Shown here piece by piece: positions 1 to 24,510 of a stretch of 24,510 nt of DNA; within the stretch, counting starts at the first letter, position 1; the number at the start of each line of letters is the position of its first letter. The notes under the pieces are model-generated. The model did no database searches, was not told the origin of the DNA, and saw only the letters and a program-made list of their open reading frames with translations. This DNA is from a virus. A program made the translations under genes and the position numbers. The DNA is taken from positions 1-24,510 of IMG/VR virus record IMGVR_UViG_3300025771_000179. One strand, written 5' to 3'.

Positions 1-371
1 CAGAACCCTAAATCTTCCAGAATGCGCCGGTCGTTTATCTCGCGCTGAATCTTGTGCTTAATGTGCTGCATGTGCGCGGAGTTATTAGCACGCAACAATT
101 CCGGGAATCGGTCGGTGTATTCCGCGTACTCGCCTAAGTCCATCGCGGCGTCGTAGGTCGGATCGACATAGCCTGACATGTCGTCTTGCAAGGCTCGGTA
201 GCCCGCAGCAAACAAGTTTTCCTGGCGAAAGGCCGCGCCCATTTGCTGAAGCAGCGTAGTCGTGTGGCTAGGCGTTTCCAAGAACGCACGACGCGAAGCT
301 TCTCCGTATGCCCGATAGGTCGGCATGGAGTTGTACGCAGTTTGCAGTTGCTCGGTAGTAGCCCAGCCCAT
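1..371 (-). CDS. Internal virion protein, T7 gp16-like (N-terminal part, cut by window edge)
   Basis: The reading frame opens with ATG at 371, preceded by a GGAGG ribosome-binding site five bases upstream, and stays open to the left edge (123 codons seen). The visible protein starts MGWATTEQLQ and is hydrophilic and helical, with a stretch (about residues 68-120) rich in Asp, Glu, His and Arg that includes YVDPTYDAAMDLGEY and NDRRILEDLGF. It directly follows the gp15-like gene, 14 bases after that stop, which is where T7 places gene 16, the very large ejected protein that crosses the cell envelope and often carries a lytic transglycosylase domain. No transglycosylase motif can be judged in this fragment. 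The gp16 assignment rests mostly on gene order and on similarity of style to large podovirus ejection proteins; function is inferred. Confidence 0.7.
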   Translation of the reverse strand, partial: MGWATTEQLQTAYNSMPTYRAYGEASRRAFLETPSHTTTLLQQMGAAFRQENLFAAGYRALQDDMSGYVDPTYDAAMDLGEYAEYTDRFPELLRANNSAHMQHIKHKIQREINDRRILEDLGF

Positions 372-385
372 GTGTGCCTCCGACG

Positions 386-3013
386 CTACGGCGTTTTACC
401 TGTGTTGAAAAAGCGCACCCATTGTTGCGCTGTCCAGCTTTGGCTGTCGCGCTCAATAGCTTTTCGCACTACCTGCAACGCTTCGTGGTCCACGCGAATG
501 CTAGTAGTCTCTTCAGCAAACAATCCGGTCAAACCAGACATTCTTCGCTCAGTAGGATCGAACCCGCCAATAGTTTGTGGCCGAGATACTCGTTCTGCTT
601 TCAAAGCACTTTCGTACATGTTGCGATATTTTGTGTTGGCCATGAACACATATCGCTGCCCCGGCAATTGCTCTAGCTCTGCGATGTACTCGCGGTTGCG
701 GCCAATGCGGTCCAAATCTTCAGCAGAAGGTCCGATATCAAAACGCAAACCGCCACGAGTCGCTTGCATCAGTCCTAGCTGTACCTGAGTTAGCCAACCT
801 TCTTGGCCTTGCCAAGCCGCTATAGCTTTTTTGAGCCCTGCAATTTTCTGCTTTGGCGACATCATAGCCAGATCGACAAATTCTTGGCGAGCTCGAGACG
901 CCGCTACTTCAGCGCCTGCTACACCTTCACCACGCAAGGCTTGGTTGGCTCCATCTAGCCACAGCATGTCTTGCGTTGCTTGTGTAGCGCGCAGCCAAGC
1001 GTTGTCTGCTGCGTCGAATCTAAAGCGGGTACCGCCATACAATTCGTCGCCAGGTCTAGTGTAGAAGGTAAAAACGCCGTCTTCGTCTTCCGGTCGCAAC
1101 ATCACCTTAAACCCAGTGCTTGGGTGATAGTCGTAGAGCATGACGCGGTTGAGCAATGCTGTGGCGTCTCTGTCGCTGTAGCCGTCTTCTTTGAAGTATG
1201 TGTAGAGCTCAAACTCAATCGCGTCTGGCGGGTTGTCCCCCAAAGCGTCAGTTAGTTCGCGATTGAAATGCACCTTTTCGCCGATGCGAATTGGTTTATG
1301 CGTGTTCAGGAAATCGTGAACGGCAAGATCGACGGCATATTGCTGCATTGCTGCGTCGTCTTTAAGAGGCGTCCCGCGCTGCGCTTCCGCAAGGTAGTGG
1401 ACATTTGCGGCAGACAAGATGTCTCGCGTTTGCTGAACGGTCAAAGAATCAAACTCGACCTTGTCCAGCCCCATAGATTCAGCGCCCGCCTCAAACCGTT
1501 TTTCGACCAGGCGCAGTTCGTCTTTGACTTTCTCTTGCATTGCCTTGCTTGCCGACGCCGGCAGTTGCGCTGTGCCAACAAATGCAGCTTGGCCCGCACC
1601 AAGTCCGGTTGCTGTTTGCAATGCTAGCGAAGCAGAAACGGCGTCTGTCGTACTGCCGTATTTTGCCAAGTGACTCAGCATGGCTACTGTAGAGCCATCA
1701 AACACGGTAGTCGGCATGGCGTCTGGCCCGGTGCCAACAATGCGTCCAGGATTACTGTCGTTGATCCCCATGACAGCTTTGGCTACAGCCGATGCCATTA
1801 GCGGGTTGGGGTTGTTGTTGTTGAGCTGACCCAGAACGAACCGCTGCACCGAATCAGGAAGTCGGTCCATTTGCGGCAAATGACCGCGAAGCCACCGGTA
1901 TGCTTCGTCGGGCTCCATTCGCAGCAAATCTTGCTCGGCAGCTTGTGACCACCAAGTGTTGAAAACCGTCTCCACTTCTGGAGTCATCGTCAGCACGCCG
2001 ACATGCTGACCTCGGCCCATCGCCCATTCGTCAATCACGCTCAAATACTGCTCTTGAGCTTGCGCTTGAGTGATTGAGGACCGTAGCGTAGCACTCAATG
2101 CTGCGCCAATTGGAGTGTCCTGTGCCGGCTCTAGTGACACTAGCAAGCTCTGCAACTGATCGGGAATGCCAGTGCGCTGTAGCGTGCTAATCGGCCCCAT
2201 TGTCGGCACCGCGTCACCGAACATGGGCGTAGTTTCAGTAAGCTGCAACAACCGGCTTGCGCTAAACGCCGCTTGCTCTAACGCAATGACTTTTGTCGGA
2301 CCCACAATGTCTGCGCCTAGTGCGTCAAATGCGCCTTGGCTCAAATCAATTTGATAGGCAACCTGGCCCCAGTCGCTGCCGTAGCCCGTTTTGATCGCCG
2401 CGAAAATGCCCTGACGATACTTGTCTACCTGCTCGCGAAACTCTGGGTAATCAGCCACCAGATTGTCAGCAAACTTGCCGAACTCTTCTGCTGCTGTTTC
2501 GCCAAACCCGTCTGCCGCAAACTGCGACAACTCGGCGTAACTGTCCTCCAGCGAGTACAGGCTGCGTGCCGCTACGGCAGCGTCGATGTCCACCTGTCGT
2601 TCTTCTGGCGTCCGAGCTTTGTAGGCGTCGTAGACTCCTTGGTACTGGCCTTTGAGCTGTGGGTGCGTCACAACTCCAGACACACGCCCGTAGAGCTCAT
2701 CGGTCAGTTTGTCTTGCAGCGCGGCGTAGCCTTCGGTCGTGAACTCCGGGCTCCGAACATAGTCGTCAAGTTGGTTCTGAATGGCTGTTGCGCCGCTCGA
2801 GAACATGGCGCGAGCCTGCGACTGCTGTTGCGTGTAGTCTAGCCGGTCCTGCTTGCGCTGCTTCTGCTGGGCTAGGCTGCCAAGCACGCCTGCAACCTGT
2901 CCGACCGCTCCAGCCAGAGCCTGGGCCGGCGCAGCCTGAGCCGCCGCGCTGGGCAAGTATGCCGGAGCTCCCATGCCGACTTGCGTCTGAGGTACTCTGA
3001 CTGGACGAACCAT
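386..3013 (-). CDS. Internal virion protein, T7 gp15-like
   Basis: An 875-residue protein starting MVRPVRVPQT, with an AAGGAG ribosome-binding site just upstream of the ATG at 3013. The first 60 residues are Ala/Gln/Pro-rich and followed by a QQKQRKQDRLDYTQQQSQAR helix; the rest is mostly charged, helical sequence with little sign of membrane segments. T7 gp15 (747 residues) is an inner-core protein ejected with gp14 and gp16 to form the DNA conduit through the cell envelope. Size, lack of enzymatic motifs, and position between a gp14-like and a gp16-like gene support this role. I did not recognise a diagnostic motif, so the assignment is mainly positional. Confidence 0.72.
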   Translation of the reverse strand: MVRPVRVPQTQVGMGAPAYLPSAAAQAAPAQALAGAVGQVAGVLGSLAQQKQRKQDRLDYTQQQSQARAMFSSGATAIQNQLDDYVRSPEFTTEGYAALQDKLTDELYGRVSGVVTHPQLKGQYQGVYDAYKARTPEERQVDIDAAVAARSLYSLEDSYAELSQFAADGFGETAAEEFGKFADNLVADYPEFREQVDKYRQGIFAAIKTGYGSDWGQVAYQIDLSQGAFDALGADIVGPTKVIALEQAAFSASRLLQLTETTPMFGDAVPTMGPISTLQRTGIPDQLQSLLVSLEPAQDTPIGAALSATLRSSITQAQAQEQYLSVIDEWAMGRGQHVGVLTMTPEVETVFNTWWSQAAEQDLLRMEPDEAYRWLRGHLPQMDRLPDSVQRFVLGQLNNNNPNPLMASAVAKAVMGINDSNPGRIVGTGPDAMPTTVFDGSTVAMLSHLAKYGSTTDAVSASLALQTATGLGAGQAAFVGTAQLPASASKAMQEKVKDELRLVEKRFEAGAESMGLDKVEFDSLTVQQTRDILSAANVHYLAEAQRGTPLKDDAAMQQYAVDLAVHDFLNTHKPIRIGEKVHFNRELTDALGDNPPDAIEFELYTYFKEDGYSDRDATALLNRVMLYDYHPSTGFKVMLRPEDEDGVFTFYTRPGDELYGGTRFRFDAADNAWLRATQATQDMLWLDGANQALRGEGVAGAEVAASRARQEFVDLAMMSPKQKIAGLKKAIAAWQGQEGWLTQVQLGLMQATRGGLRFDIGPSAEDLDRIGRNREYIAELEQLPGQRYVFMANTKYRNMYESALKAERVSRPQTIGGFDPTERRMSGLTGLFAEETTSIRVDHEALQVVRKAIERDSQSWTAQQWVRFFNTGKTP

Positions 3014-3022
3014 GGTTTCTCC

Positions 3023-3810: not shown

Positions 3811-3811
3811 T

Positions 3812-6607
3812 CTATCTCCCGTGCGTCAGTTGGAAGTTGAGCCCTGCCACCTCAAAGTGGTACGGCAACTCATGCGTAATTGGGATTTCGTGCATTGTCC
3901 CGTATGTCCCGACCGACACGACCTTCCGCCATTCCGTTACAGCACTAACTGGTGTTGCCAGAGATGTCGCATTCGGGATCGACACCCCCGGCGGCATGAC
4001 CGTGTTGCCTGCCACCTTGCCGCCAATGGATTCACGAATCAGCACAATCAGAGTGGAGACTGATTCCAGCCGCCCCTGCGAATCCCCTTGGTTAGGGATC
4101 ATGAAATGGGGGATTGTCGGAGTCAGCTTGAACGGAATCGCTCTGCCAGCTTGAGACGCATTAGGCGTGAAGCCCACTTCTGGGTGCGTCACCACGCCTT
4201 GGGAATCGACTGCGTAGTCGCCAATGTACACAAACGGCCCACCCGCGTTTTGCTGCACCATGACTTGGACTGGCTTGGACGCCGGCAAGTCAATGAGGTT
4301 GGACCCGGTATTCAGCCCGGTTCCAGACAGCGACGATCCGTTCACCGTCATGTCCATTGCGAACTCGGGCGTCATGCGCTCAATGGTGCGGACCACCGTC
4401 CCTGCACTCGTTTGACCCCCTTGCGTCCACCGACGGACAATCCAGAGCTCGTCCTGCTGCACGCGAATGCCGTCGCCCCGCACCGTGGTAATGGACTCAA
4501 TGGTAGAGTCCTCGCTAGCGGTCCCCAGCGTCGTCGGGAACGACGGCTGCGTCAGGCGAGACCACCCGGTCACATTGTTGGCTCGCCACATGGAGAGGGC
4601 GTACAGGCGGTCCTGCGTGTCTTTTGCGTACAGTGCCTGTCCTGGCGTGCCGACATAGGACAGTTGCTCAATGACGATGTCCTCAAACAGGTGCTTGGCC
4701 AAGTCCGTCAGGTCAGGGCTCTGGTACCTGTTCGCGTCGTCCCGGAACACCATCTCCCGGAGACCCTTGCCGGCAGCGTCAGTAAAGATCACCGCGTTGT
4801 CCACCATGGGAGGGCGCACATTCCGCGAGCCGATGCTGCTCTGTTTCTCAACGGCTAGGTTGGCGGGAGTGATCGGTCGTCCGCCTATGGCGTATTCGCC
4901 GGTAGCAGTCCCGATGAGAAGATCCGACGCAGAGGCCATCCAAGTAAGGCTGCCCCCGTAAGAGTCGGCGATGTCCGCGCTGATGCCGTCACTGTCCAAG
5001 CCGCCTGCGGTAAAGTCCTCCGGCTCGTAGACCTTGGAGGCTACGACGCGCCCTGGCTTTTCTTTGTAGCCGCCCATCCAGATACGGCCTTGGTGTGACG
5101 CCCCACAGGACGGGAATCCTACACCGTGGCTCTGGGTCAGTCCCCACTGCATCGACGGCCCTTGGTGCGCCATGGGCTTCACAATGCGAGCGTCGTAGAC
5201 CACCTCGTCGCCGTCAGGGCCAGCAGCCGTATCGACTCCTGTGATCGCGACAATGCCGCCGTTGATGTGAATCCCACCGCCGACCAAGTTGCCTTCCCAG
5301 CGGTCGTAGGTAGTGGCGTGTCCGGCAGGCAACCATTGGCTGTCAGTAAATGTGGGGTTGCTGTAATACTGCAAGTATCCGTTTGGGCTGTAGACTTTGT
5401 ACTCGTCTGCGATGAGCTGCCCTGCCCCGTCTCGAGCCTGCCCGACATACACCGGCAATTTCTTGAGGTAACTCCGGTTCAGCAAGCTGTCGGGCACCGT
5501 CTGCTGCGCGGAATTGGCCGCAATCCCGTACACGGTAACCTCGACGCTGTCGCCAGCAGGGATGCCGTTGCCGTTTTGCAGTCGCACGATTTCCACACTG
5601 CTGCTGGTGTTGACATAGGTAATGACGCCTAGAATCGTGGCGTCCACCGCGAACGTGGTACTAGAGACCTGCACAACAAAGCCAGTCCAGTTAGCTTTGG
5701 CTGCCGGTGTTGTTGGTCCCGTCAGCGTCACATCGCTCAAGAGGTTAGCGGAGTTGACTCCCCAACCTTGCACCGCTGTGCCAGTGTAGGTAATCAGAGG
5801 GGTATAGGGACCAGTCCAGTCGAGCGAGTCTGGCCCTACTCCACCATAGCGTGTTACGACATCTAGATCCGTGCGGCTCTTGTAGCGCGTAACCTGCACC
5901 CAATTGCCCCAAGGATTATCCACCGGGTCTGCTGCGTTTGCGCCCATGACGCGCCAATAAGAGTCGTTGTCGTCAGGCACAAAGAAGTCAGAGTCGGTCG
6001 TTAGAGTGTTGCCGACAAACTCAACCGGCGTTCCAACACGGTAGTCAATGATGACCGGGCTGCCCGTCTGCTTGGGATACAGCCCGTACTCCCACGCTTC
6101 GGAGCCAGGATCTTGCACCTGCCTCTCGAGGTACACCGCCGGCTTGTCTGGGTGCATGAAGTAGATGCGCTCAGAGTCTTGGAACGAATACACCGAGCGC
6201 AGTTCCGTAGCCGTGAAGTTGTGGTAGTAGGCTGTTCCGTCACCAAATGCGCTGAACGGCCCATGCGCTGCGTTGTCGCCAAAATCGACAAAGGTTTGCG
6301 TGGCAGCGTCCATGACTCGCAGTTGCCGAGCCGGCGTGTTGGTGTCTGCTGCGTCGTCGCCTGCGGAGACAAACTGCACGACATACTGACGGCCCTTGGC
6401 GTAGTAGAAGAACAGGCGGGCGAAGTTGTTGCCCGTTGTGTTCGTCACGATTTGCGTGCCGTACCGTTTCCGGGCCGCTCCTGTCGGCGTTAGCAGCGCG
6501 TTCACGAGCTCCATGCACCCAGCCTGGTACTGGCTGGTGCTGACCATGCCGTACACAGACGGGCTAATTTCACCCGTGGCAAAGGACTGCTTGGCGACCC
6601 AGACCAT
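3812..6607 (-). CDS. Tail tubular protein B (tail nozzle), T7 gp12-like
   Basis: A 931-residue protein starting MVWVAKQSFATGEISP, with an AGGGGGA ribosome-binding site before ATG 6607. The N-terminus carries the phrase typical of podovirus nozzle or tail-stabilising proteins: an F.tGEiSPsvyG block, then a Y..GC.ELvNallTPtGaarkRyGT block (about residues 7-52). The rest is beta-rich, as expected for a propeller-like nozzle that hexamerises below the gatekeeper ring. T7 gp12 is 794 residues, so this is somewhat longer. It follows the tail tubular A segment with 8 bases between. The only ACGT tetranucleotide found in the window lies inside it at 5653-5656. Confidence 0.92.
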   Translation of the reverse strand: MVWVAKQSFATGEISPSVYGMVSTSQYQAGCMELVNALLTPTGAARKRYGTQIVTNTTGNNFARLFFYYAKGRQYVVQFVSAGDDAADTNTPARQLRVMDAATQTFVDFGDNAAHGPFSAFGDGTAYYHNFTATELRSVYSFQDSERIYFMHPDKPAVYLERQVQDPGSEAWEYGLYPKQTGSPVIIDYRVGTPVEFVGNTLTTDSDFFVPDDNDSYWRVMGANAADPVDNPWGNWVQVTRYKSRTDLDVVTRYGGVGPDSLDWTGPYTPLITYTGTAVQGWGVNSANLLSDVTLTGPTTPAAKANWTGFVVQVSSTTFAVDATILGVITYVNTSSSVEIVRLQNGNGIPAGDSVEVTVYGIAANSAQQTVPDSLLNRSYLKKLPVYVGQARDGAGQLIADEYKVYSPNGYLQYYSNPTFTDSQWLPAGHATTYDRWEGNLVGGGIHINGGIVAITGVDTAAGPDGDEVVYDARIVKPMAHQGPSMQWGLTQSHGVGFPSCGASHQGRIWMGGYKEKPGRVVASKVYEPEDFTAGGLDSDGISADIADSYGGSLTWMASASDLLIGTATGEYAIGGRPITPANLAVEKQSSIGSRNVRPPMVDNAVIFTDAAGKGLREMVFRDDANRYQSPDLTDLAKHLFEDIVIEQLSYVGTPGQALYAKDTQDRLYALSMWRANNVTGWSRLTQPSFPTTLGTASEDSTIESITTVRGDGIRVQQDELWIVRRWTQGGQTSAGTVVRTIERMTPEFAMDMTVNGSSLSGTGLNTGSNLIDLPASKPVQVMVQQNAGGPFVYIGDYAVDSQGVVTHPEVGFTPNASQAGRAIPFKLTPTIPHFMIPNQGDSQGRLESVSTLIVLIRESIGGKVAGNTVMPPGVSIPNATSLATPVSAVTEWRKVVSVGTYGTMHEIPITHELPYHFEVAGLNFQLTHGR
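5653..5656. other. Only ACGT tetranucleotide found in the window
   Basis: A by-eye read of every line for ACG followed by T gave this single hit, inside the nozzle gene at a Thr-Thr-Phe stretch. All other ACG trinucleotides are followed by A, C or G. Confidence 0.85.
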
Positions 6608-6615
6608 TGTTCCCC

Positions 6616-12097: not shown

Positions 12098-14821
12098 TCA
12101 CGCGAAAATCAGGAATCGGTCTCCGTTGCTTGGCGCAACATTGAGCCGGTCCACAGTGAGTGTCTTGGTGCTGTCCGTGTATCCGGTTACGACAAAGCCT
12201 CGCAGCTTGGCGTTACCGTCTACAAACACGCCTACCTTGTCGATCAGTTGCGCGTCGTTGGTTGTCGGGATTCCGGTAGAGCTCCAGCTATCCGTGCTGC
12301 CGCCGCCGCTCGTCACCGTCGCGTCAATCGTTGCATTGAGAATGCGAACCCAGGTTTCGACCGGGGCCGTCTGGCCCATGATCTCAGTCAGGTTGACGCC
12401 CGTCACAGCAGTCACCGTGACGGTGTTGTTGGAGTTGTCTGTGACATCGATCTGCCCGCGCACATAGACTCGACCACCCGTGCAAGACGAGTCTAGAATT
12501 ACGCTGCACTGCCCGTCGATCACGACCGTGTTAGTTGCGTCTAGATTGCTCAAGGTTACCTCGCCGCTGAACTTGGACATGGCAAGGCTGCTGGTGTTGG
12601 CTGTCATGTCGAAGATCAGCGGGCTAGAGGCTGCGTGGCTGCAGTTGTCGAAGTAGCTCCAAGAGCCGCCTTGCAGCGCAACCGTGCCGTTAAGCAATGC
12701 GCTACGCACGCCGTCTACAGACTTGAATGTCGTAGTCGTGCTAAGTGTGCCGCCGTCAATCGAAACATTGCTTGCAGCTCCACAAATCCCGAACACCAAC
12801 ATTCCGACAAGCCGCACATTCGTATGCACGACGCCGCCAAAGTTGTAGGTGCTGCTGCCAATGCCAACGATCTCGAGGTCGGTCAAGGTACTGGTTGGCG
12901 AGCAGGTGCTGGCAATCGCGTAGATCCGGTTCAGCCCCGTAGACTTGCACAGAGCAACGGCATCGTCGAAGTCGTTGACCGGCGCGTCTGGCAGCCCGTG
13001 CGTTCCAATTGTGGTGCCCGTCGTCGCTGCGCTGTCGTCAAACCAAATGGCTCCAAGGTACGCGGCGATCCCGATAGTAGCGGTAGCGTCAGCGGGAACC
13101 TTGCCGGCGGTGTGGGTCGCGAGGGTTACGCCGTCCACTTCAATCAGGTTCGCGTCCACCGTGCCGCTGACCGTGGCTGTCGCGTCAGCCGGAACCTTGC
13201 CCGCCGTGTGGGTCGCCAAGGCCACGCCGTCAACGCTACGCAGGTTGGACTGGACCTGGCTAGTCACGCTAGCCACATTGGTCACATTCGTAACCGTGTC
13301 GGTAGCCGGATCGAAAGTGGAGCGAGTGGTGATCGCCGCGTCCAGGAGGGAGGCGTTGAGCCCCGTCACTGACCCGACCGTAGTCACATTTGCAACCGCG
13401 TCCGTCGCTGGGTCAAAGTCATTGAGTGCCGTGATCTGCGCCGGGATGTCCGTCCCCGTGTCTACGAGAATGGCGTCCACTACAGTATCCACGGTGTCCA
13501 CTTTGCCGTCGATTGTAGTCAGCGTGGCTGGGAGGCTCGTGCCCGTGTCGATCAGGATCGCGTCAACGACCGTATCGACCGTATCGACCTTGCCCTCAAT
13601 CGTCGTGAGCGTAGCCGGAATGTCCGTGCCCGTGTCCACCAGGATCGCGTCCACCACGGTATCAACGGTGTCCACCTTCGTCTCAATGCTCGTGGTGTCG
13701 ATCTCGATCCGGTCCACCACTGTGTCCACTGTGTCGATCTTGGTCTCAATGCTTGCAAGCTCGCCGGGGATCGTGGTGCCCGTATCTTCGAGGATGTCCA
13801 GCGCAGTCTGCATGTGGCTGTCGTAGGTCAGGCTGCTGGTCGTGCCGAGGTCGCTGACGAGCCACGCCCCTCGCACCTGCACGGCAAGGGAGGTGCAGGT
13901 CGCGGCGATCACCAGCTTGCCGACTCCCTCGACGGTGACGGCGTTGGTGGCTGCACCGCTGTTGAACTGAATGCCGCCCGAGTAGTGACGGAACCCGACG
14001 CTCGCGCTGGCAGCGAAGGTAAGCCCCGGAGTTGAAGCACCCGGCACGAGGGAGTAGCACTTCTCGAAGGTCATGGCTGTAGACGCGATCACCGACGAGG
14101 TTCCGGTCAACCCGCATTCCTTCGCCAGACCGCGCAGCCCCGTGACGGAATCCAGTTCGCAGTTGATGAAGGTGGCGTCTCCGGTGGCACCCGAAGTCCC
14201 ACTCACCTTGATCCCCTCGAACTTGGCGTTCTTGATGTCTTGGCCGCCAAGGATTACTTCCGCGCTGCTCCGGTTGCCCGTGCCGTAGAAGTGGTAGTCG
14301 TTGGCAGAAGCGGTGAAGGTGGCGGAAGCGTCGGGCAGCATGTAGATCAGGTTCACGCCGAGCGTGTCAGCAATCGACTTGGCGTCCCCAATGCTGCTGC
14401 ACGGGTTGGTGGCCGTGCCGGAGTAGCCGAGGGTGGTGCCCGCCGCGCCCGTGGTCTGCTGGAAGTAGACGCCGGGGCCGACCGGGCCGTCGTAGTATCT
14501 CGACGCCACCTCGGCGAGCGACAGAATCCGCACCTCTAGAGCCGTGGAGAGCCAAGTCTGCGGCGAGGTGAGGTCGCGCACGACGAGGAGCCCGCTCTTG
14601 TTTCCAGCGGTGGTGGAGCCCGCCGTAATCGAGACAAGGTAGATACCGTCACCCCGATGCTGCGGCGTAAAGTTCGTTGAAGTTCCACCGTCTACCTTGA
14701 ACTTGGCGTCGCCGGAAGCAAAGGTCGGGCTGGTCGTCAGAATGTCGGTCCCGTCGAGGGCGTACAGCGGGAAGAACACATCCTTCTGCACGCCGGGGAT
14801 GATCTCGTAGGGTCCGTTCAT
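12098..14821 (-). CDS. Tail fibre or spike-like protein with coiled-coil repeats and two beta-helix-like modules
   Basis: A 907-residue protein whose ATG overlaps the upstream TGA (TGATG), with AGGGG six bases before it. Residues 1-100 look like the small beta-sandwich anchor seen at the start of many phage fibres (KDVFFPLYALDGTDI ... GDGIYLVSITAG ... KSGLLVVRD). Residues about 115-340 resemble a parallel beta-helix. Residues about 355-470 are four tandem 21-30-residue repeats built on VDTVDTVVD, likely a coiled coil. Next come FDPATD and VDGV.LATHTAGKVPADATAT repeats, then a second beta-helix-like module (about 580-800) resembling the first, and a C-terminal domain beginning PVETWVRILNATIDATV. 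The architecture fits a trimeric receptor-binding fibre. Which surface structure it binds cannot be told. Confidence 0.82.
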   Translation of the reverse strand: MNGPYEIIPGVQKDVFFPLYALDGTDILTTSPTFASGDAKFKVDGGTSTNFTPQHRGDGIYLVSITAGSTTAGNKSGLLVVRDLTSPQTWLSTALEVRILSLAEVASRYYDGPVGPGVYFQQTTGAAGTTLGYSGTATNPCSSIGDAKSIADTLGVNLIYMLPDASATFTASANDYHFYGTGNRSSAEVILGGQDIKNAKFEGIKVSGTSGATGDATFINCELDSVTGLRGLAKECGLTGTSSVIASTAMTFEKCYSLVPGASTPGLTFAASASVGFRHYSGGIQFNSGAATNAVTVEGVGKLVIAATCTSLAVQVRGAWLVSDLGTTSSLTYDSHMQTALDILEDTGTTIPGELASIETKIDTVDTVVDRIEIDTTSIETKVDTVDTVVDAILVDTGTDIPATLTTIEGKVDTVDTVVDAILIDTGTSLPATLTTIDGKVDTVDTVVDAILVDTGTDIPAQITALNDFDPATDAVANVTTVGSVTGLNASLLDAAITTRSTFDPATDTVTNVTNVASVTSQVQSNLRSVDGVALATHTAGKVPADATATVSGTVDANLIEVDGVTLATHTAGKVPADATATIGIAAYLGAIWFDDSAATTGTTIGTHGLPDAPVNDFDDAVALCKSTGLNRIYAIASTCSPTSTLTDLEIVGIGSSTYNFGGVVHTNVRLVGMLVFGICGAASNVSIDGGTLSTTTTFKSVDGVRSALLNGTVALQGGSWSYFDNCSHAASSPLIFDMTANTSSLAMSKFSGEVTLSNLDATNTVVIDGQCSVILDSSCTGGRVYVRGQIDVTDNSNNTVTVTAVTGVNLTEIMGQTAPVETWVRILNATIDATVTSGGGSTDSWSSTGIPTTNDAQLIDKVGVFVDGNAKLRGFVVTGYTDSTKTLTVDRLNVAPSNGDRFLIFA
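13083..13234 (-). repeat. Two direct repeats with 96-bp period in the fibre gene
   Basis: Each copy encodes VDGV[A/T]LATHTAGKVPADATAT. Copies begin at 13234 and 13138 and are also very similar at DNA level. Confidence 0.85.
13420..13756 (-). repeat. Tandem coiled-coil repeats (four copies) in the fibre gene
   Basis: Four consecutive units share I[E/D][T/G]K[V/I]DTVDTVVD. The first is shortened (about 21 residues) and the rest carry the longer I.VDTGT..PA.[L/I]T tail (29-30 residues, 87-90 bp). Valine and isoleucine spacing suits a heptad-like coiled coil. The DNA copies are close enough to allow copy-number change by recombination. Confidence 0.85.
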
Positions 14822-16259: not shown

Positions 16260-16262
16260 GTT

Positions 16263-16699: not shown

Positions 16700-17674
16700 C
16701 TAGTCAGAGTTGTTGACAGAAGTGACGCCGAGATCGTCCACACGCACCGCACCGTAGAACGCTCCGTGGTAGACGAGCTCCGTGTTGCCTCGCGACGGCA
16801 CATTCCGCACGAACGCCTCTTGGCGTCCCATGCCGCAAACCATCGCGTTGCTGTTCCAGCCGTACACGCGGTGTTGACTAGCAGAACCCGGCACCTGCGT
16901 GCAGGAAATCCACTGGCAGCCCAGCAGGCGCGTAATTTCGCCGTCCATGAGCGGGCGCATAGCGTTGAAATCGCTGCTGACCGCTCGGTTGGTGGTGTCG
17001 TTGAAGAGCTGCGCCACTTGAATCGGGTGAATCCCAATGTAGGCGTCGTAGAAAGCGTCGTTCTGCTGCAGGATCGAAACGAGTTCGACCGCTTTAGCCA
17101 TGCAAAACGGCTGCACACCAGTTCCGGTAGTGCCGTCTGAGAGCAGAGAGTCGTTGCCGGCGGTGCCGGCATAAGCGGAAGTGCCGCCGCCCTCGCCAAG
17201 GTTGACCGCCGCCAGAATCTCCGAAAAGAAGATTTCGTCGAACTTGCGACCCATGGCAGCGAGCACATTGTTCTGGTACTCGCCACCCGGCACAAGCGCG
17301 TTCATCAGGCCCAGCGTTCCCATTTGGTCACGCAGGTCAAAGAACTCCGGGTACTCAAAATGCTGCGGGCGAATCACGACCGTCCGAATGCCGGTCTCGG
17401 CACTGTCCACGCCACCGATGTCAGCACCGATAGCCTGGGTCCGCTGGCGAGTTTGCAGGGTCGCTTTGTTCCAGCGGTCGATGCGCTTCTCGTAACCCTC
17501 GAGCTCCACCATGCGGCTCGCCGTGTTGGCGACCATGGAGCGAGTTTGCTGCATCTCTTTGAACATGGTCTGCTCGTACGCCATTTTCAGCGCGAACAGG
17601 CCAATAGGGGAATCAGTGGTACCACCAGCCGGAGAAGTGGCACCGCCCAACGGGATGTAATCAGTAATAGCCAT
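16700..17674 (-). CDS. Major capsid protein
   Basis: A 324-residue protein starting MAITDYIPLGG, with GGAG nine bases before ATG 17674. It has the features of the T7-type HK97-fold capsid families: an N-terminal helix (LFALKMAYEQTMFKEMQQTRSM), a P-domain helix LQTRQRTQ, IRPQHFEYPEFFDLRDQM, a long spine region with MGRKFDEIFFSEILAA, and a beta-rich C-terminus with a HRVYGWNSNAMVCGMG-like turn. T7 gp10A is 345 residues. It is placed after scaffold and small accessory genes, and it alone in this part of the operon has a 146-bp untranslated leader carrying a large hairpin, hinting that its expression is controlled separately. Confidence 0.92.
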   Translation of the reverse strand: MAITDYIPLGGATSPAGGTTDSPIGLFALKMAYEQTMFKEMQQTRSMVANTASRMVELEGYEKRIDRWNKATLQTRQRTQAIGADIGGVDSAETGIRTVVIRPQHFEYPEFFDLRDQMGTLGLMNALVPGGEYQNNVLAAMGRKFDEIFFSEILAAVNLGEGGGTSAYAGTAGNDSLLSDGTTGTGVQPFCMAKAVELVSILQQNDAFYDAYIGIHPIQVAQLFNDTTNRAVSSDFNAMRPLMDGEITRLLGCQWISCTQVPGSASQHRVYGWNSNAMVCGMGRQEAFVRNVPSRGNTELVYHGAFYGAVRVDDLGVTSVNNSD

Positions 17675-17733
17675 GCTGGCTTACTCCATTCACAAGTCAT
17701 TCACTTGATCGGGGAGTAATCCGCCCAAAGCAG

Positions 17734-17813: not shown

Positions 17814-17820
17814 AGTATTG

Positions 17821-18105: not shown

Positions 18106-18293
18106 TAGGAACACTCCTCTCCGCACGACAGGCACACGACCTTGCTGCCAGCCGTAATGATTTTGGCGTTACAGCAGTCACTTTCCCATGTCGTGGGGTG
18201 TTGCTCCAGCGTGCCGTCACGCCGTTGCTGCTGCTCCAGGTAATGACGCTTCCGCAAAGCGTCCTCGTAGATTTGTTTAGCCTGGTCGTCCAT
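18105..18293 (-). CDS. Small zinc-ribbon protein
   Basis: A 62-residue protein; its ATG at 18293 overlaps the scaffold stop (TAATG). Residues 1-35 are a charged helix with QQQRR. Residues 39-61 carry five cysteines at 40, 41, 54, 57 and 61 in the pattern DCCNAKI...VCLSCGEEC, a small zinc ribbon common in phage genomes. Function is unknown; nucleic-acid or protein binding is the usual guess. Confidence 0.8.
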   Translation of the reverse strand: MDDQAKQIYEDALRKRHYLEQQQRRDGTLEQHPTTWESDCCNAKIITAGSKVVCLSCGEECS

Positions 18294-19117
18294 TAGATGA
18301 ACCGAGTCCCGTCAGGCAGAAACGCACTCGGACGGGTCGTGAACCGAGGATCGTTGATCCCCTGATCGTACCCCAGCGACTTCAGCGTCATCAGCACCTC
18401 GAGGAACCGCGCCTCTGCCAGAGCGGCCTTGGGGTGCTTTTTGTTTTTGAACTCTTCAGAACCCATGATGTCCACGGCTTCGATGTAGAGCTCATTGGGA
18501 GTGGGGCCAGCGGGTTGCGCCGGCGATGCCCCGACCGGGGCGCTGTCTTCGCTCATGTAGTCTCCTGCCTGCAGCAGAACATTGACGAGGGCCGGGTGTC
18601 GGTCCAAGCCGGTTTCCTTCAGAACCTGCGCTACGGCAGGATCGTCTCCCATCATTTTTGCCAGAGTCTTGTCAGCCAGCTCCAGCCGCTTGTCAGCAGC
18701 GTCTCCGAGCTTGTTGCGCGTCTGGCTTTCCCATTCGGTGCGCTGCGCGTCCACCTGCTGCATACGCGCTTGCGCGTTAGTGCCGGCGGCCTCCGCAAGA
18801 CTCTGCCACTGCGATTGCGTCAGACCTCGTTGGTGCGCCACTTCGCGCAACGACTCCAGCGTGACGCGCAGCGTATCGTTGACATTCTCTGGAATCCCAT
18901 AACCCTCGTGGCTGTCCGGCCTGCCCATGGAGCTGTAGAACTTGCCCCAGTCGTCCGGGGTGGCGTCTTCTCCAGGCACACGCCGGGTCGAAGTGAGTTT
19001 GTTGCGCGTTTCAAGAAAGCTACGAGCCAGCACATTCACATCGGCGTCGTCGCCGAACTGCTTCAGCACTGCCTCGCGTTCAGGACCGTCAGGTAGAATG
19101 TCTGCCAGTCGGTTCAC
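18293..19117 (-). CDS. Capsid assembly scaffolding protein
   Basis: A 274-residue acidic, helical protein with GTG start at 19117, GGGAG five bases upstream, and a GTGA overlap with the preceding stop. The N-terminal part includes the PGEDATPDDWGKFYSSMGRPDSHEGYGIP segment (about residues 48-77, split here for length) that is characteristic of T7-like scaffold families, and the middle is a long helix rich in Gln, Glu and Arg. T7 gp9 is 307 residues. The scaffold directs assembly of the prohead around the portal and leaves before DNA packaging. Confidence 0.88.
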   Translation of the reverse strand: MNRLADILPDGPEREAVLKQFGDDADVNVLARSFLETRNKLTSTRRVPGEDATPDDWGKFYSSMGRPDSHEGYGIPENVNDTLRVTLESLREVAHQRGLTQSQWQSLAEAAGTNAQARMQQVDAQRTEWESQTRNKLGDAADKRLELADKTLAKMMGDDPAVAQVLKETGLDRHPALVNVLLQAGDYMSEDSAPVGASPAQPAGPTPNELYIEAVDIMGSEEFKNKKHPKAALAEARFLEVLMTLKSLGYDQGINDPRFTTRPSAFLPDGTRFI

Positions 19118-19404
19118 ACGATCTCCCTTTTATCTGCCCGCCTAGCCATGCCGTCGATGAACCAGTAGACCCGGCGCATGGTGTCCTGTCGCACCACGGT
19201 AGTCGGGTCTGTTGGGCCGTCCAGCCCACCGACTCTTGCACCTAGCACTGCCCCTAGAATCTCGAGGCACCGCTTACCGCTGGCCGTTGCAAAGGTGTCT
19301 TCAAACACCTTTTTGGCCTCTTCGCCAATTGCCTTGTGGCGCAACTGGCGTTGCTTGAGCTCGCGCTCCACATCAAAGAAATTGAACTCTGGAGTCTCGC
19401 TCAA
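19114..19404 (-). CDS. Bbp19-like small phage protein
   Basis: A 96-residue protein. The start is TTG at 19404, overlapping the portal stop (TTGA), which places the first residues as MSETPEFNFF. The core VFEDTFATASGKRCLEIL ... RQDTMRRVYWFIDGMA follows the F..tF.t..Gk.vL...........GrR.v...I outline of Bbp19-like phage proteins, which are commonly found next to portal genes of podoviruses. Function is not established. Its coupling to portal and scaffold implies a head-assembly role. Confidence 0.68.
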   Translation of the reverse strand: MSETPEFNFFDVERELKQRQLRHKAIGEEAKKVFEDTFATASGKRCLEILGAVLGARVGGLDGPTDPTTVVRQDTMRRVYWFIDGMARRADKREIV

Positions 19405-21068
19405 ATCACCGGTCCCGTCATGTCAGCCAGACCTGCGCCGTTACGCCGCGTACCGCCCGGTCGGAGCTGTACTTGAGTTTGCGATTGACCCGCCCGCTCC
19501 ATGAGCTGCGAAATACGGTCGTCGGCAGCCTGATCGCCCCGCGCCTCTCGCAGTTGCTCGATCTCGTCCTGCGACCGGAAAATCTTCGCCGGCACATCGC
19601 CCAGGAACTTCTCGACCTCGCGCAGTTGGTCATTGTCGATGTCTTCCAGCGCACCGGGGTCGCCCGTGCGCTCAAACCGCTGGAACCGCCGCTCAAGAAA
19701 CGAATCAATCCGGGCCAGGCTTTGCGCTTTCATGGCGGTGAAGAACGGCGAGGTGAACTCAAACTCCAGCTCTAGGTTCGGGTTCTCGTTTATGATCGCC
19801 TGCAGTTCGGGCAACGCTCCCTTGGACAGCATGATGTCCGTGACATTCTCAAATAGCGGCGACAGCTTCTCATGGACAATTGTCTGGCTCGTAGAAGCCA
19901 GACGCGCCAAGGCCCGCGCTTGGCGGCTCCTTTCCGCTTCGGCACTCCGAGTCTGCGCTTCCGGCTCACCAAGCGCGTCTCCAAGAAATGCCTCGCGCAC
20001 CGTCATGTGCATGTTGGCAATCACCTGCTCGATCAGGCCAAAGTCCGTGCCGGATCGCAGGTATCCCGGCTGCACTTCCTTGGGTGGGCGCACTACCACA
20101 TGCCCGCCTGGCGTCAGGTCGAGCTGCGCGATCTCGTCCTCTTCTGCCATGAACGGCGGGTTCATTTCCTTGCCCAGCGCGATGAACTTCTGCCGAGCAA
20201 TCTCGTTCACGCCCTTCATGATCGGACGCGCCAAGTGCCCTCGCCCGCGCCCGTACTGCTCGCCGTCCATGACCATCATGCGAGCTGCAATGTAGGGGCA
20301 GTTGTTGAACTGCCCGCGCCGGATCGTGAACGGATCGTCTTTGAAAACCCACCGGCTGTCCCATGGCTTGATGTCACCGCCCTTCTTGCCCTTTTCGTTG
20401 CGCTGAATGAAGTGCAGCACCTTGACCATGGTGAACGGCTGGTCTTTCGCCAATTGCGCCATGCGCGGCGGGATCTTGTCTCCGGGCTTGTTGAAGAACG
20501 CAACATGGTCAATGGCAGGCCGCTCCAGCTCGCGCACCAGCAGCAGCGGACGGCCAATGCACGAAAACACCCACCACACTCGAGAGAACGGGACGGGGTC
20601 GAAGTTCAGCCCGCCGAACTCGTCGTTGTCGCCGGCGTACTCGTCGTCGTGCTGCACATACAGCGTGCTGTTGCCCAACACACCCCAGTCGCGTGTGTCG
20701 GTCTGCGCGGCGACATAGAAATTGGAGGCGGACAGCGCGTCCATGACTCGCATGGAAGTGTCGTACAAGGCAGCGTCGATCTCGCGACTAAACTCAACAG
20801 CACCGCGCACCCTGTATTTGACCCAGTCGCTGGAGCTCGGGTACAGCGTGCCGTTGAGGAAGTTGACGAACCTGTCCGCCTCCACTGCACCAAACGAATC
20901 AAACAGCGGCTTTCTGCGCTCGCCTGGACTGTACCGCGTTGTGATGTCTCCGCGATACGGCATGAAGAGATCCGTAATCTCCTGCATCGTCCACTCGTAA
21001 TTGGTGCGTTGATTCTCGAGGAACGAGAACCTCTGCATGAGTTGCCGCACATCTGTCGTTACCGCCAT
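19401..21068 (-). CDS. Head-to-tail connecting (portal) protein, T7 gp8-like
   Basis: A 555-residue protein starting MAVTTDVRQLMQRFSFLENQR, with AGGAGA before ATG 21068. The N-terminus has the signature of the podovirus connector family: an R..W....ditdlf.Py block and FDSFGAVEADRFVNFLNGTLYPS. Later hallmarks are GRGRGHLARPIMKGVNEIAR and a helical AEAERSRQARALARLAS region. T7 gp8 is 536 residues. The twelve-subunit ring forms the DNA entry and exit vertex, docks terminase, nucleates head assembly and later binds the gatekeeper. It starts 9 bases after the large terminase stop. Confidence 0.95.
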   Translation of the reverse strand: MAVTTDVRQLMQRFSFLENQRTNYEWTMQEITDLFMPYRGDITTRYSPGERRKPLFDSFGAVEADRFVNFLNGTLYPSSSDWVKYRVRGAVEFSREIDAALYDTSMRVMDALSASNFYVAAQTDTRDWGVLGNSTLYVQHDDEYAGDNDEFGGLNFDPVPFSRVWWVFSCIGRPLLLVRELERPAIDHVAFFNKPGDKIPPRMAQLAKDQPFTMVKVLHFIQRNEKGKKGGDIKPWDSRWVFKDDPFTIRRGQFNNCPYIAARMMVMDGEQYGRGRGHLARPIMKGVNEIARQKFIALGKEMNPPFMAEEDEIAQLDLTPGGHVVVRPPKEVQPGYLRSGTDFGLIEQVIANMHMTVREAFLGDALGEPEAQTRSAEAERSRQARALARLASTSQTIVHEKLSPLFENVTDIMLSKGALPELQAIINENPNLELEFEFTSPFFTAMKAQSLARIDSFLERRFQRFERTGDPGALEDIDNDQLREVEKFLGDVPAKIFRSQDEIEQLREARGDQAADDRISQLMERAGQSQTQVQLRPGGTRRNGAGLADMTGPVI

Positions 21069-21077
21069 GGTCTTCTC

Positions 21078-22580
21078 CTAGAAGAACTCGTAGTCGCCAC
21101 GCGCTTGCGGCGTCGTGTAGACCTCGAAACCCTTTTGTGCGCCGTGCGCTGGGGCTTTGGCGTAGCGCAGCATCATCATTGCCTTGTGTAGCGCGTCGAT
21201 CAGGTGATCGTCTTGGTTCGGCTTCACAAGACCCTTCTCGTGTCGGTAGATCCGCATCTCCTCTAGGAGCTCGCGGCAGTTCTGGGAAATCTTCAGCCGG
21301 CCTGTGGCAAGTCGGTCCTGCACCATTTCAATCGCCGTCATGATTGACCGGCTCTTGCGGTTCTCGTGGTCATACACGAATGCCGGATCTTTCAGCATTC
21401 GCAGACCCATGGACCGGTATTTCTCCGCAATCGTGCCGCCGCTCGTCGTGGACCCAAACCCGCGCCCGCCGTCGTGCGGCCACGCGACCGGCACTACCGT
21501 GCCGCCCATCATTCGCACCCGGTCCACATACACCGGCGTCTCCTGGTTTGACGCCTTGAACTCGTCCACCACATGAACCATGTCGCGTTCAGGCTCAATG
21601 ACCAGTTTGACTGCTGCGAATGTTCCAGTCCCGTGGGGGAGGTCCAGCCCGATGATCTGTGGGAGGTGCGGCTGCGCGTGGAAGGTGGGCTCGATCATCA
21701 TGCGGCGAGGATAGGCGTAGATCATTCCCGCGCCTCGGCAGGGCCGGCCATACAGCCGCGCTTCCGCCTCCGGGTGGTCTTTCCACCGCAGCATGTTGAA
21801 GTCGTACTCCTCCTGCGTCAGGTGAGTACAGTCGTCAATGGTGTAGTTGAGCAGGCACATGAGACCCGTCTCGTCCCGCTCGAACAGCAGGTAAGTCTCC
21901 GTGTCGCCCAGCAGCGGGCACGCCGCAATCCAGATGTAGCCCAGCGTGGCGTTGATCCGCGCCCGCATCTCGTTGTAGATGTCGTCGGCGGGCATCTCGT
22001 TCAGGAAGATACCGTCTAGCGTGTATCCCTGAATCCGCCGCCACCCCTTGGCGTAGCCGAAGAACCGCAGCACCGTCTTGCCCTGCACCACGCCGTTCTC
22101 GTCATGCCAGTCAACGAGCGCATAGTCTAGCAGGTGGTCCGCGTTGCCTCTCAGACTGACCAAGTCCGTTTTCGGATCGTAGCACTGCTGGGGGATCCAC
22201 CCCTCCCCGTAGTTCGGAGCCATCCCGAACAGCTTGTCGCAGATTTGGTCTCGAGTCGCCTGGGCCGTCTCGCCGGCGGCAGCCAAGTGCGGCGGCTTCT
22301 TGAAGCGCGGACCTTCCCACTCGTCTGGGTACAGGCCCGTCGCATGGATCGACATCAGATAGTCGATGGTGTAGGTCTTGCCCCCGACCTGGTTCGGGCC
22401 ACTGAGCAGAATCTCGTGCGCCTTTGGATAGCTCGTCGGCCCGCCGGCAGAACAGAAATCCCACTGACGCGGGTTTGGCGCGAACAAATCCATCCACCGC
22501 GTGGATAGCCGCTTCGCCATTTCTGTTTCTAGCGCAAGCTCCTCCTCGAGGTCTGCTCGCAAGGACTCGTAGTCACTCAT
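21078..22580 (-). CDS. Terminase large subunit
   Basis: A 500-residue packaging motor. The ATPase half has the P-loop SGPNQVGGKT at residues 60-69, a Walker B-like IFLNE at 191-195, and the coupling motif around IAACPLLGD. The nuclease half has GLD (D313), VVDEF (D339), HDGG at 369-372 and DDHLIDALHKA near 458, consistent with the RNase H-like two-metal site. Two features deviate: the P-loop has one extra Gly relative to the usual GxNQxGKT, and the Walker B Asp is Asn (N194) while catalytic Glu (E195) is kept. Start ATG 22580 overlaps the small terminase stop by 8 bases. Confidence 0.93.
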   Translation of the reverse strand: MSDYESLRADLEEELALETEMAKRLSTRWMDLFAPNPRQWDFCSAGGPTSYPKAHEILLSGPNQVGGKTYTIDYLMSIHATGLYPDEWEGPRFKKPPHLAAAGETAQATRDQICDKLFGMAPNYGEGWIPQQCYDPKTDLVSLRGNADHLLDYALVDWHDENGVVQGKTVLRFFGYAKGWRRIQGYTLDGIFLNEMPADDIYNEMRARINATLGYIWIAACPLLGDTETYLLFERDETGLMCLLNYTIDDCTHLTQEEYDFNMLRWKDHPEAEARLYGRPCRGAGMIYAYPRRMMIEPTFHAQPHLPQIIGLDLPHGTGTFAAVKLVIEPERDMVHVVDEFKASNQETPVYVDRVRMMGGTVVPVAWPHDGGRGFGSTTSGGTIAEKYRSMGLRMLKDPAFVYDHENRKSRSIMTAIEMVQDRLATGRLKISQNCRELLEEMRIYRHEKGLVKPNQDDHLIDALHKAMMMLRYAKAPAHGAQKGFEVYTTPQARGDYEFF

Positions 22581-23232
22581 CCTTCTCTGGACCCTTCAGA
22601 CGCGCACCCCCACTCTCCCGCACCCGCTTCGCTTCGTCTGCCTGCGTCTGCAACTGCAACCGCTGCTCCCGACGCTTCACCAGCTCCTGCATGAGCTGCT
22701 CGTCCGTCAGCTCCTTCACCGGCTCTGGCGGCTTCTCCTGGTTCGTATTCTCCGTCTCCTTCGGCAGCAAATGGTTCAGGACGAACTTCCCAAAGAAACC
22801 GAGCACATTCATGCCCTCTTTGTCGTACTCGCCCGTCTCCGGGTCAATCACCCGAATATGCGCAGCCGCCTCCGCAAACCGATCCCCCAACCCCGCCGCG
22901 AACAACTTGTTCACCAAGTCATGCTTCAACTGCAACGGGTTCTTCGTCTCCGGCAACACATCCGCGTCCTCAGCACGGATCAAGCTACGCCTACCCGAAC
23001 ATTCCCTGTACCATTCACGCAGGTCGTCGTTGTGAGGGAGCTGGGCTAGCACCAGTTCGTACGGGATGCCCGCCGCCTTGGCCGCATCGGCGAAAGCCAG
23101 ACCGGAGTCAATGCCTTGCCTCATTTGCTTCAGCAGCGTCTCCCGAATGAAAAACCCACCCATCTTCTGGGCGCGGATCTCATTCGACACCACCGGCACC
23201 TGCCTGTCCTCACGCTCATGGTGCTTACTCAT
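22573..23232 (-). CDS. Terminase small subunit (probable)
   Basis: A 219-residue protein starting MSKHHEREDRQ. Residues 44-75 form a helix-turn-helix-like segment (GLAFADAAKAAGIPYELVLA and on), fitting the DNA-recognition domain that selects phage DNA for packaging. The C-terminal 60 residues are a charged helix (ELTDEQLMQELVKRREQRLQ), usual for terminase small subunits. It is the first gene of the leftward operon and overlaps the large subunit. No strong ribosome-binding site precedes ATG 23232; a later in-frame ATG (MGGFF) is possible. Confidence 0.8.
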   Translation of the reverse strand: MSKHHEREDRQVPVVSNEIRAQKMGGFFIRETLLKQMRQGIDSGLAFADAAKAAGIPYELVLAQLPHNDDLREWYRECSGRRSLIRAEDADVLPETKNPLQLKHDLVNKLFAAGLGDRFAEAAAHIRVIDPETGEYDKEGMNVLGFFGKFVLNHLLPKETENTNQEKPPEPVKELTDEQLMQELVKRREQRLQLQTQADEAKRVRESGGARLKGPEKDE

Positions 23233-23283
23233 GCCCGCAAGTGTCCAAAAACCACCACTTTACTGCAAGCATGAAAGGCGTCC

Positions 23284-23595
23284 ATGTCCAATATCTCCGT
23301 CAACGATAGCCCCCTCCACAACCGCGTAGACCTCAATATGATCGCCAATACCCAGCAATCCTGGCATTCCGTGCTGACCGAGCTCCGCGACGGAGGCGAA
23401 CACGGCGTCAACAACAATCAACTCAAAGAACGAGCCCGGATCTTCAAAGCACATGTCGAAGCCCTCTGCCTCACCATTGAAGCCCTACCCCCCCAAGGCC
23501 GCACCCTCGAGTTCTCCGGCTCCTCCAACATGTTCACCCCCGACTCCTTCAACAACATTATCCACACACCCAGAAACACCCAATTCCCCACTTGA
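23284..23595 (+). CDS. Hypothetical protein
   Basis: A 103-residue rightward protein starting MSNISVNDSPLHNRVDLNMI, with AAAGG six bases before ATG 23284. It lies divergent from the terminase operon, 51 bases away. The first two thirds are helical and hydrophilic (QSWHSVLTELRDGGEHGVNN ... KERARIFKAHVEALCLTIEAL); the tail is Ser/Pro/Asn-rich. No family recognised. Sense-strand composition is C/A-rich and G-poor, unlike the G/A-rich sense strand of the late genes. Confidence 0.55.
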   Translation: MSNISVNDSPLHNRVDLNMIANTQQSWHSVLTELRDGGEHGVNNNQLKERARIFKAHVEALCLTIEALPPQGRTLEFSGSSNMFTPDSFNNIIHTPRNTQFPT

Positions 23596-23608
23596 CCAAA
23601 ACAACACC
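23591..23608 (+). repeat. Copy 1 of CTTGACCA(A/C)AACA motif
   Basis: An 8-base match plus a further AACA-rich stretch is repeated at 23813-23830, 222 bases on. This copy overlaps the stop of the hypothetical gene. TTGACC resembles a -35 box, but no convincing -10 follows. Confidence 0.5.
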
Positions 23609-23677
23609 ATCCTCCAAACTCCCTTACACCTACCTCCAGTGCCTGTGAGGACTTCCATCACCCTCACTGACCACTGT

Positions 23678-23716
23678 CCCCGCTCGGTGCGATACTCCCA
23701 TCTCGCACCAGCGGGG
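23678..23716 (+). terminator. Strong GC-rich hairpin, possible rightward terminator
   Basis: Bases 23678-23684 and 23686-23692 pair with 23703-23709 and 23710-23716 as a 14-bp stem with one bulged C and a 10-base loop. Rightward it is followed by AATTTCATTT, an imperfect U-rich tail, about 80 bases after the stop of the hypothetical gene. Confidence 0.5.
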
Positions 23717-23734
23717 AATTTCATTTACACAGAA

Positions 23735-23805
23735 TTCGCCAGGGACGGAATTGCCCTAAACCAGCAATTCAGGCCGGTATTGTGGCGGTAGCCCGGACTG
23801 GCGAA
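23735..23805. other. Nested inverted repeats
   Basis: Outer arms 23735-23742 and 23798-23805 are perfect 8-base complements; inner arms 23748-23754 and 23764-23770 are perfect 7-base complements; a small GGC/GCC hairpin may form at about 23784-23793. Together they could fold into a three-way junction in RNA or DNA. Confidence 0.5.
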
Positions 23806-23812
23806 CTTTGCC

Positions 23813-23830
23813 CTTGACCACAACACCCAC
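23813..23830 (+). repeat. Copy 2 of CTTGACCA(A/C)AACA motif
   Basis: Second copy of the motif at 23591-23608. A TCTAAC lies 16 bases after its TTGACC, so a weak sigma-70-like promoter reading toward the two small rightward genes is conceivable. Confidence 0.4.
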
Positions 23831-24055
23831 TCCCCTCTAACCTCCCCTCGCGGGCAACGGATCGCAGTCAGCCCTCTCGAGCCAATAGCCGAACGACTGA
23901 CTCCCTCTCCTTGCCGGTCAGCCTTGATGGATCTGACCCCCCCTTGTCCCAGCCGACAGGGCACGCCGCCCATTCCCAGCGGAGAGCCGGACTTTTTCAA
24001 GTTCCGGGCCTGGGGATGGGCGACAGCCCTGTCCCAACCACCCCCAGGCCAGCCC

Positions 24056-24241
24056 ATGAAGCTCGACAACAAAACCACTCACAGCCCAGCCAAACTCTCC
24101 TACAACAAACAATCCAAAGAACTTACCATCGAACTCACCCCACATAACTCCGACCACATCCCACTAGCACTCACCCTCTCCTATGACCAAGTCGTTATCC
24201 TCGCCAGCCTACTCAAAAAAGCCGGCATTCATGCCCCGTAA
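24056..24241 (+). CDS. Hypothetical small protein
   Basis: A 61-residue protein starting MKLDNKTTHSPAKLSYNKQ; the frame is open further upstream but that part is Pro/Gly-rich and looks non-coding. It alternates a strand-like segment (KELTIELTP) and a helix (LSYDQVVILASLLKKAG). No clear ribosome-binding site, no family. Its last 11 bases overlap the next gene. Confidence 0.5.
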   Translation: MKLDNKTTHSPAKLSYNKQSKELTIELTPHNSDHIPLALTLSYDQVVILASLLKKAGIHAP

Positions 24242-24425
24242 ACGCAAAATCGTCACTAAAGCCGACCTCGCCTGGATCAGACAATCCCCCGGCACCAAAG
24301 CTCACAAGCTACGACTCCTCGCCCATATGATCCGAATCCGCTCCAACCCCCTCTACCAACAGCATGAAGCCAAACGAGCTCTCCACCAAAAACTCTACAA
24401 AGAACGGCTAAAGGGTCGCGTGTAG
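24231..24425 (+). CDS. Hypothetical small basic protein
   Basis: A 64-residue, strongly basic protein (MPRKRKIVTKADLAWIRQ ... RALHQKLYKERLKGRV) beginning inside the end of the preceding gene. It is predominantly helical with regularly spaced Arg and Lys, so nucleic-acid binding is plausible, but no family is recognised. Confidence 0.5.
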   Translation: MPRKRKIVTKADLAWIRQSPGTKAHKLRLLAHMIRIRSNPLYQQHEAKRALHQKLYKERLKGRV

Positions 24426-24510
24426 GCCGGGGATATATTGGGGGGACCTTACTCCCATCCCGCGCGTTCCCAAAGGGGACCGCCCCCCCCCTCGAACCCG
24501 TCCAGGCCCC
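24426..24510. other. Right-end G-run/C-run stretch
   Basis: No gene. It holds a run of six G (24440-24445), two GGGGACC direct repeats (about 24442 and 24476) and a run of nine C (24483-24491). The G and C runs could pair. The sequence runs off the window. Confidence 0.4.

Follow-up and report, generated by a model that had tools for sequence, protein, structure and literature searches.

Loss of ACGT and of many six-base palindromes from an uncultured podovirus genome fragment: probable avoidance of Type II restriction

Why should a long stretch of viral DNA contain a common four-base word only once? The question is raised by the IMG/VR virus record IMGVR_UViG_3300025771_000179, analysed here over its 24,510 bases (the window; guanine plus cytosine (GC) content 58.8%) and a fragment of the genome of an uncultured podovirus. 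An earlier note, made from the sequence alone, had reported a single copy of the palindrome ACGT where about 90 were expected, and ascribed the gap to long selection against a restriction system cutting ACGT. Exact counting agrees: ACGT occurs once, at 5653-5656, against 93.3 copies expected from a trinucleotide Markov model (z = -12.2, the lowest among all 256 tetranucleotides) and 89.4 predicted by base composition alone. Selection remains the best supported cause and decay of methylated cytosine is rejected, but a story confined to ACGT proves too narrow. Avoidance under Type II restriction, with ACGT as one of several targets, very probably accounts for the window.

The loss is specific to the word itself. 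With avoidance defined as an observed-to-expected ratio (O/E) below 0.1 at an expectation above 15, ACGT is avoided at 1/93.3, and also at 1/103.5. Since 200 synonymous-codon shuffles of 16 open reading frames (ORFs; 21,873 nt) yield on average 90.8 ACGT (standard deviation 6.0, minimum 72), protein sequence and codon usage both fail to explain the loss, as does composition. General avoidance of CpG is also rejected, as had been argued previously: CG occurs 2292 times, and the related words ACGA (78), ACGC (142), ACGG (112), CCGT (202), GCGT (241) and TCGT (189) are all frequent. The flanking bases are irrelevant (SACGTS 0/37.3, RACGTY 0/33.6, WACGTW 0/16.6, YACGTR 0/19.2). Among the 15 other four-base palindromes, O/E falls below 0.8 only for GGCC (90/146), AATT (39/59) and TATA (4/9); the value for GGCC (0.61) stems in part from the absence of CGGCCG, GGGCCC and AGGCCT, and this word was not counted as a second four-base target. 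The claim that the loss extends over coding and non-coding DNA alike holds for coding DNA, where it is present gene by gene; non-coding DNA is too scarce, the segment 23233-24510 having no ACGT with fewer than 2 expected (12 ACG, 11 CGT and 75 CG).

The same loss is seen throughout the viral population from which the window derives. Four further contigs, 99.7-99.9% identical to it in the overlap, contain 1, 0, 0 and 0 ACGT against 91.8, 60.1, 14.8 and 11.7 expected, so that all five contigs agree. The lone copy, in contig G005, is the window's own site, and the 3 kb that G005 adds on the left are again devoid of ACGT. None of the 52, 15, 10 and 4 single nucleotide polymorphisms in these four contigs makes or removes an ACGT, a comparison without power, as a random change has only a 2% chance of producing one.

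Comparison with relatives, which the earlier note had recommended, sets this population apart. G002 (IMGVR_UViG_3300002231_000783, 34.8 kb), with 84% identity in the terminase and 79% in the portal protein (BLASTP), has 95 ACGT for 93.5 expected; L021, 66% identical in each of these proteins, has 52 for 50.5; and L024, reached through the RecT protein of G002 (54% identity between the two RecT), has 55 for 56.1. As the closest IMG/VR relatives stand at full expectation, the depletion is, among the viruses seen, particular to the lineage of the window. When codons are aligned, no ACGT of the relatives is also ACGT in the window (0/49 for G002, 0/30 for L021). Where the amino acids are conserved, ACGT is kept in 0/11 and 0/10 cases respectively, against 439/1191 and 328/844 for other CG words. 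Two local features of G002 can be recorded here: its terminase end (L011:12500-17302) has 3 ACGT for 10.6 expected, unlike the rest of the contig, and its early region (L010:2707-5223) encodes a YqaJ/RecE-like exonuclease adjoining the RecT annealing protein.

Is ACGT the only word to have been removed? The earlier note treated it as the lone target and named equal depletion of many unrelated palindromes as the observation that would speak against this. Such depletion is found. With palindromic hexamers taken as testable when at least 6 copies are expected (31 in the window) and as eliminated when O/E is 0.15 or less, 18 of the 31 are eliminated; the corresponding figure for 1338 non-palindromic hexamers with comparable expectations is 24 (Fisher p = 1.5e-21), and ACGT is part of 17 of these 24. 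The words that are gone include CGGCCG (0/18.4), CAGCTG (0/16.6), CCGCGG (0/14.1), GCATGC (0/13.7), GGCGCC (0/13.3), GTCGAC (0/13.0), AGCGCT (0/10.9), ACGCGT (0/9.2) and CGATCG (0/9.0), among others, and GCGCGC (1/19.2), CGCGCG (1/18.0) and TGCGCA (1/12.3) are nearly so. This elimination beside that of ACGT indicates several Type II specificities rather than one. Moreover, the non-palindromic members of RGCGCY are also avoided (5/24.1 in the window, 17/20.6 in G002), a loss beyond the palindromes that fits the specificity of an enzyme and not a generic dislike of palindromes.

The sets of lost words differ between the window and its closest relative. Among the 40 palindromic hexamers with at least 4 expected copies in both, 22 are eliminated in the window, 20 in G002 and 14 in both. 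Losses confined to the window include CAGCTG (18/15.7 in G002), CGATCG (16/14.5), TTCGAA (20/15.0), GCATGC (8/8.7) and AGGCCT (13/7.3); ACGCGT (1/5.7), GTCGAC (4/11.0) and GTGCAC (1/4.3) are also scored as such though low in G002. Conversely, GAGCTC (22/8.5 in the window), GCCGGC (31/19.6), GGTACC (6/6.8) and three more are lost from G002 only. These partly shared and partly private sets suggest that some enzymes were met before and others after the two lineages split. G002 has none of the four palindromic hexamers built around ACGT, yet its overall ACGT count is at expectation.

A general pressure against palindromes, exerted through cruciforms, RNA or DNA hairpins or replication trouble and not through sequence-specific cutting, would agree with the low total of six-base palindromes (pooled O/E 0.47) and with the many degenerate families that lose just their perfect palindromes. 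It is nevertheless very unlikely to be the cause, because the pattern is on or off: GCCGGC, GAGCTC, CTCGAG (21/6.8) and CCATGG (15/8.4) are abundant, and CTGCAG (15/12.3) and TCGCGA (9/9.6) are also fully present. Hexamers in which non-palindromic flanks surround a palindromic four-base core show no reduction (1223 against 1059), the other four-base palindromes are near normal, and the set missing from G002 is a different one.

Under avoidance of Type II restriction, recent ancestors of the virus would have repeatedly entered cells carrying orthodox Type II enzymes, one of which cut ACGT whatever its flanks. Genomes with fewer unmodified sites would have survived, and ACGT together with CAGCTG, CGATCG, GTCGAC, GCATGC, RGCGCY, GCGCGC, TGCGCA and others would have been replaced, in coding DNA mostly by synonymous codons, until they had all but vanished. 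A restriction endonuclease would thus be the agent, the ACGT enzyme would belong to the host or hosts, and several systems over time would lie behind the set of lost words. Enzymes with the site ACGT in the Biopython list are HpyCH4IV, HpySE526I and MaeII.

Several observations weigh against this explanation. GRCGYC, CMGCKG, YGATCR and YGCGCR lose only their palindromic members, so that their enzymes must be assumed to be strict. So many palindromes are eliminated that a single host with all the corresponding enzymes is unlikely, and a succession of hosts has to be assumed. One ACGT persists in both contigs that cover its position, and roughly the early third of the genome lies outside the window. 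Contrary to the hope expressed in the earlier note, the gap gave no lead to the host, no host, methyltransferase or nuclease having been identified: two scans of a genome contig collection with a terminase profile and the portal protein returned no relative. Nor was a cognate restriction or modification gene found, as C5 methyltransferase, N6/N4 methyltransferase and HNH domains were all absent from the window, G005 and G002 (all fragments, with other nuclease families untested). The Microcystis phage MJing1 was considered as a clue to the host and rejected, since the 25.5 kb retrieved have normal ACGT (67/75.5).

The nuclease could also be sought on the viral side. Suppose that an ACGT nuclease without a matching methylase, directed against host DNA or competing viruses, were encoded by the virus itself or by a satellite or plasmid in the same cells. 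The viral genome would then have to be free of the site; relatives not carrying the gene should retain ACGT, which is what is seen; and the gene could reside in the early region, which lies outside the available sequence. We regard this as highly improbable, given that the domain searches in the three viral fragments were negative, within the limits stated, and that the eliminated six-base palindromes would be left unexplained.

The codons that replaced ACGT distinguish selection from mutational decay. In the frame nAC-GTn, the Asn, Asp, Tyr and His codons preceding GTn end in T in 78/78 cases, against 190/1038 elsewhere; C to T is the sole synonymous escape in this frame, which therefore cannot separate the two processes. 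The frame ACG-Tnn is more informative. Threonine before Tnn is encoded by ACG in 1/65 cases against 243/549 elsewhere, and the remainder are 13 ACA, 30 ACC and 21 ACT, in the proportions observed elsewhere (ACA:ACC:ACT 77:133:96; p = 0.67). CGT after nnA numbers 0 for 7.5 expected, with no excess of CAT (2 for 5.7) and too few TGT (2 for 0.6) to judge. The lost codons are thus spread over the synonymous alternatives in ordinary proportions instead of becoming C-to-T products, and this record bears the mark of selection against the ACGT word itself.

The earlier note had seen the gap as filled by ACAT or AATGT; coding-strand ATGT is indeed in excess (106 against 45 in shuffles), and ACAT is barely raised (77 against 67.5). 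The excess of ATGT would agree with decay without selection, in which a 5-methylcytosine (m5C) methyltransferase of host or phage modifies ACGT and deamination yields ATGT or ACAT, as proposed for Helicobacter pylori (PMC10423294), where ACGT was lost in that way; but this is the least probable of the alternatives, because it predicts 37.9 ACA among the 65 threonine codons (p = 3e-10 for the 13 found, ACC and ACT filling the rest in their usual proportion), because changes beyond deamination are seen (for example ACG-TCG versus ACG-AGC, GTA-CGT versus GTC-CGT and GCA-CGT versus GCG-CGG, direction not reconstructed), because the window, G002 and G005, all fragments, have no C5 methylase, and because the lost six-base palindromes would have no explanation.

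The window presents an unusually clean natural site purge, with five contigs purged of ACGT, sister viruses retaining it and a codon record separating selection from decay. Even viruses as close as 84% identity in the terminase can differ by the complete purging of a four-base site. It is tempting to speculate that the eliminated words (ACGT, RGCGCY, CAGCTG, CGATCG, GTCGAC, GCATGC and about a dozen more) form a readable fingerprint of the restriction enzymes of the host or host guild, acquired in part after the divergence from G002, although we hold this only tentatively. If so, comparing these fingerprints with the enzymes that bacteria in the same waters carry could reveal hosts for viruses beyond the reach of any other method of assignment. 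The phenomenon is already known, and the window provides a clear new example without a new mechanism. The literature searched, from which subscription journals are mostly absent, contained no account of a phage that has eliminated ACGT, and this particular case may be unreported so far.

The virus is uncultured and probably virulent. The named genes of the window (Table 1) lie on the minus strand in the order probable small terminase, large terminase, portal, scaffold/protease-like protein, major capsid and tail tubular protein B, a gene order resembling that of pelagiphage HTVC010P. Identity of the core proteins to named phages is just about 22-35%: parts of the tail protein B, portal and capsid show 22-31% to pelagiphages, and the terminase is closest to that of MJing1 (35%). 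No integrase is present among the named ORFs, the genome being incomplete and no search having been aimed at integrases. No tRNA genes were found in the window, and the internal ORF 386-3013 has no phage match. Within ORF 12098-14821, an 87-base tandem repeat at 13440-13678 (2.7 copies, 75% matches) encodes repeated 'VDTVVDAILVDTGT'-like segments. At the right end, 23233-24510 shows a plus-strand GC skew of about -0.35 to -0.40 and small plus-strand ORFs; it is probably the start of an early region on the opposite strand. In viral contigs, a 45-mer from this end had no match, and the left end of G005 matched only G005 itself.

Table 1. Features of the window and their coordinates
Feature	Position	Strand	Remarks
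Probable small terminase subunit	22573..23232	-	Named from position alone, without family match
Terminase large subunit	21078..22580	-	PF03237/PF17289; 84% identity to G002, 66% to L021
Portal / head-tail connector	19401..21068	-	PF12236
Scaffold/protease-like protein	18293..19117	-	phrog_3742, phrog_458
Major capsid protein	16700..17674	-	PF19821
Large ORF, 1625 residues	6616..11493	-	Without Pfam match; ACGT 0 versus 22.6 expected
Tail tubular protein B-like protein	3812..6607	-	phrog_376
Sole ACGT	5653..5656		Codon pair ACG-TTC in the tail tubular protein B gene; also in G005
Stretch poor in ACGT and about 20 six-base palindromes	1..24510		ACGT 1 versus 93.3 expected

How unusual is such a purge? 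A viral sample was formed by at least 119 IMG/VR loci sharing a 14-mer taken from the window, and is not strictly random; of the loci listed, 61 were kept after dropping those shorter than 8 kb and L065, which belongs to the population of the window, as does L113. Among these listed matches, 13/60 other viral loci have eliminated at least one four-base palindrome, and 2/59 with at least 10 ACGT expected (L102 and L058) have none; judged by matching ORF lengths, these two appear to be one other virus. Viruses of this sort have often lost some four-base palindrome completely; ACGT is seldom the one lost, though the window is not the only case. Several loci are without two or three four-base palindromes (AGCT, CCGG and GGCC in L077; CATG, CTAG and GATC in L134; also L033 and L078), and multi-site purging is common in this collection.

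The other virus without ACGT (G006/G007; IMGVR 3300006030_000083 and 3300025585_001077) resembles the window in its ACGT counts (0/70 and 1/101) and in its low frequency of six-base palindromes (O/E 0.23). It differs in carrying genes for a nucleotide-sugar epimerase, a glycosyltransferase, an aminotransferase and a protein with an N6/N4 DNA methyltransferase domain (L148/L149, L150/L151). No relative of the window terminase was detectable in it, and the two viruses are apparently unrelated.

For comparison with named phages, palindromic hexamers with at least 5 expected copies were scored. By this measure the window eliminates 20/37, phage T7 (NC_001604) 23/57, HTVC010P 17/33, MJing1 (25.5 kb part) 15/32 and Rhizobium phage RHph_N3_2 0/45. 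T7 is thus similar in its purge and in its pooled six-base palindromes (O/E 0.45); unlike the window, which is shorter, it keeps ACGT (170/198), has eliminated GATC and avoids a different set of words.

A survey of almost 4000 prokaryotic viruses has dealt with site avoidance under Type II restriction (Rusinov et al. 2018, PMC6286503). In that study, where the host has the orthodox Type II system in question, 7.1% of the sites are eliminated from its phages, chiefly the non-temperate ones. The window shares with these cases the near-complete loss (ratio < 0.1, expectation > 15) of a palindromic orthodox Type II site and a difference between close relatives, which may occur there as well; its ratio is derived from Markov models and not from the measure of that paper, and it is a fragment. 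The loss of ACGT from H. pylori (M.Hpy99XI; PMC10423294) was likewise mostly without protein change. It concerns, in contrast, a bacterial genome, and the changes there, biased towards ATGT and ACAT, are linked to m5C deamination, a pattern that the codons of the window do not match.

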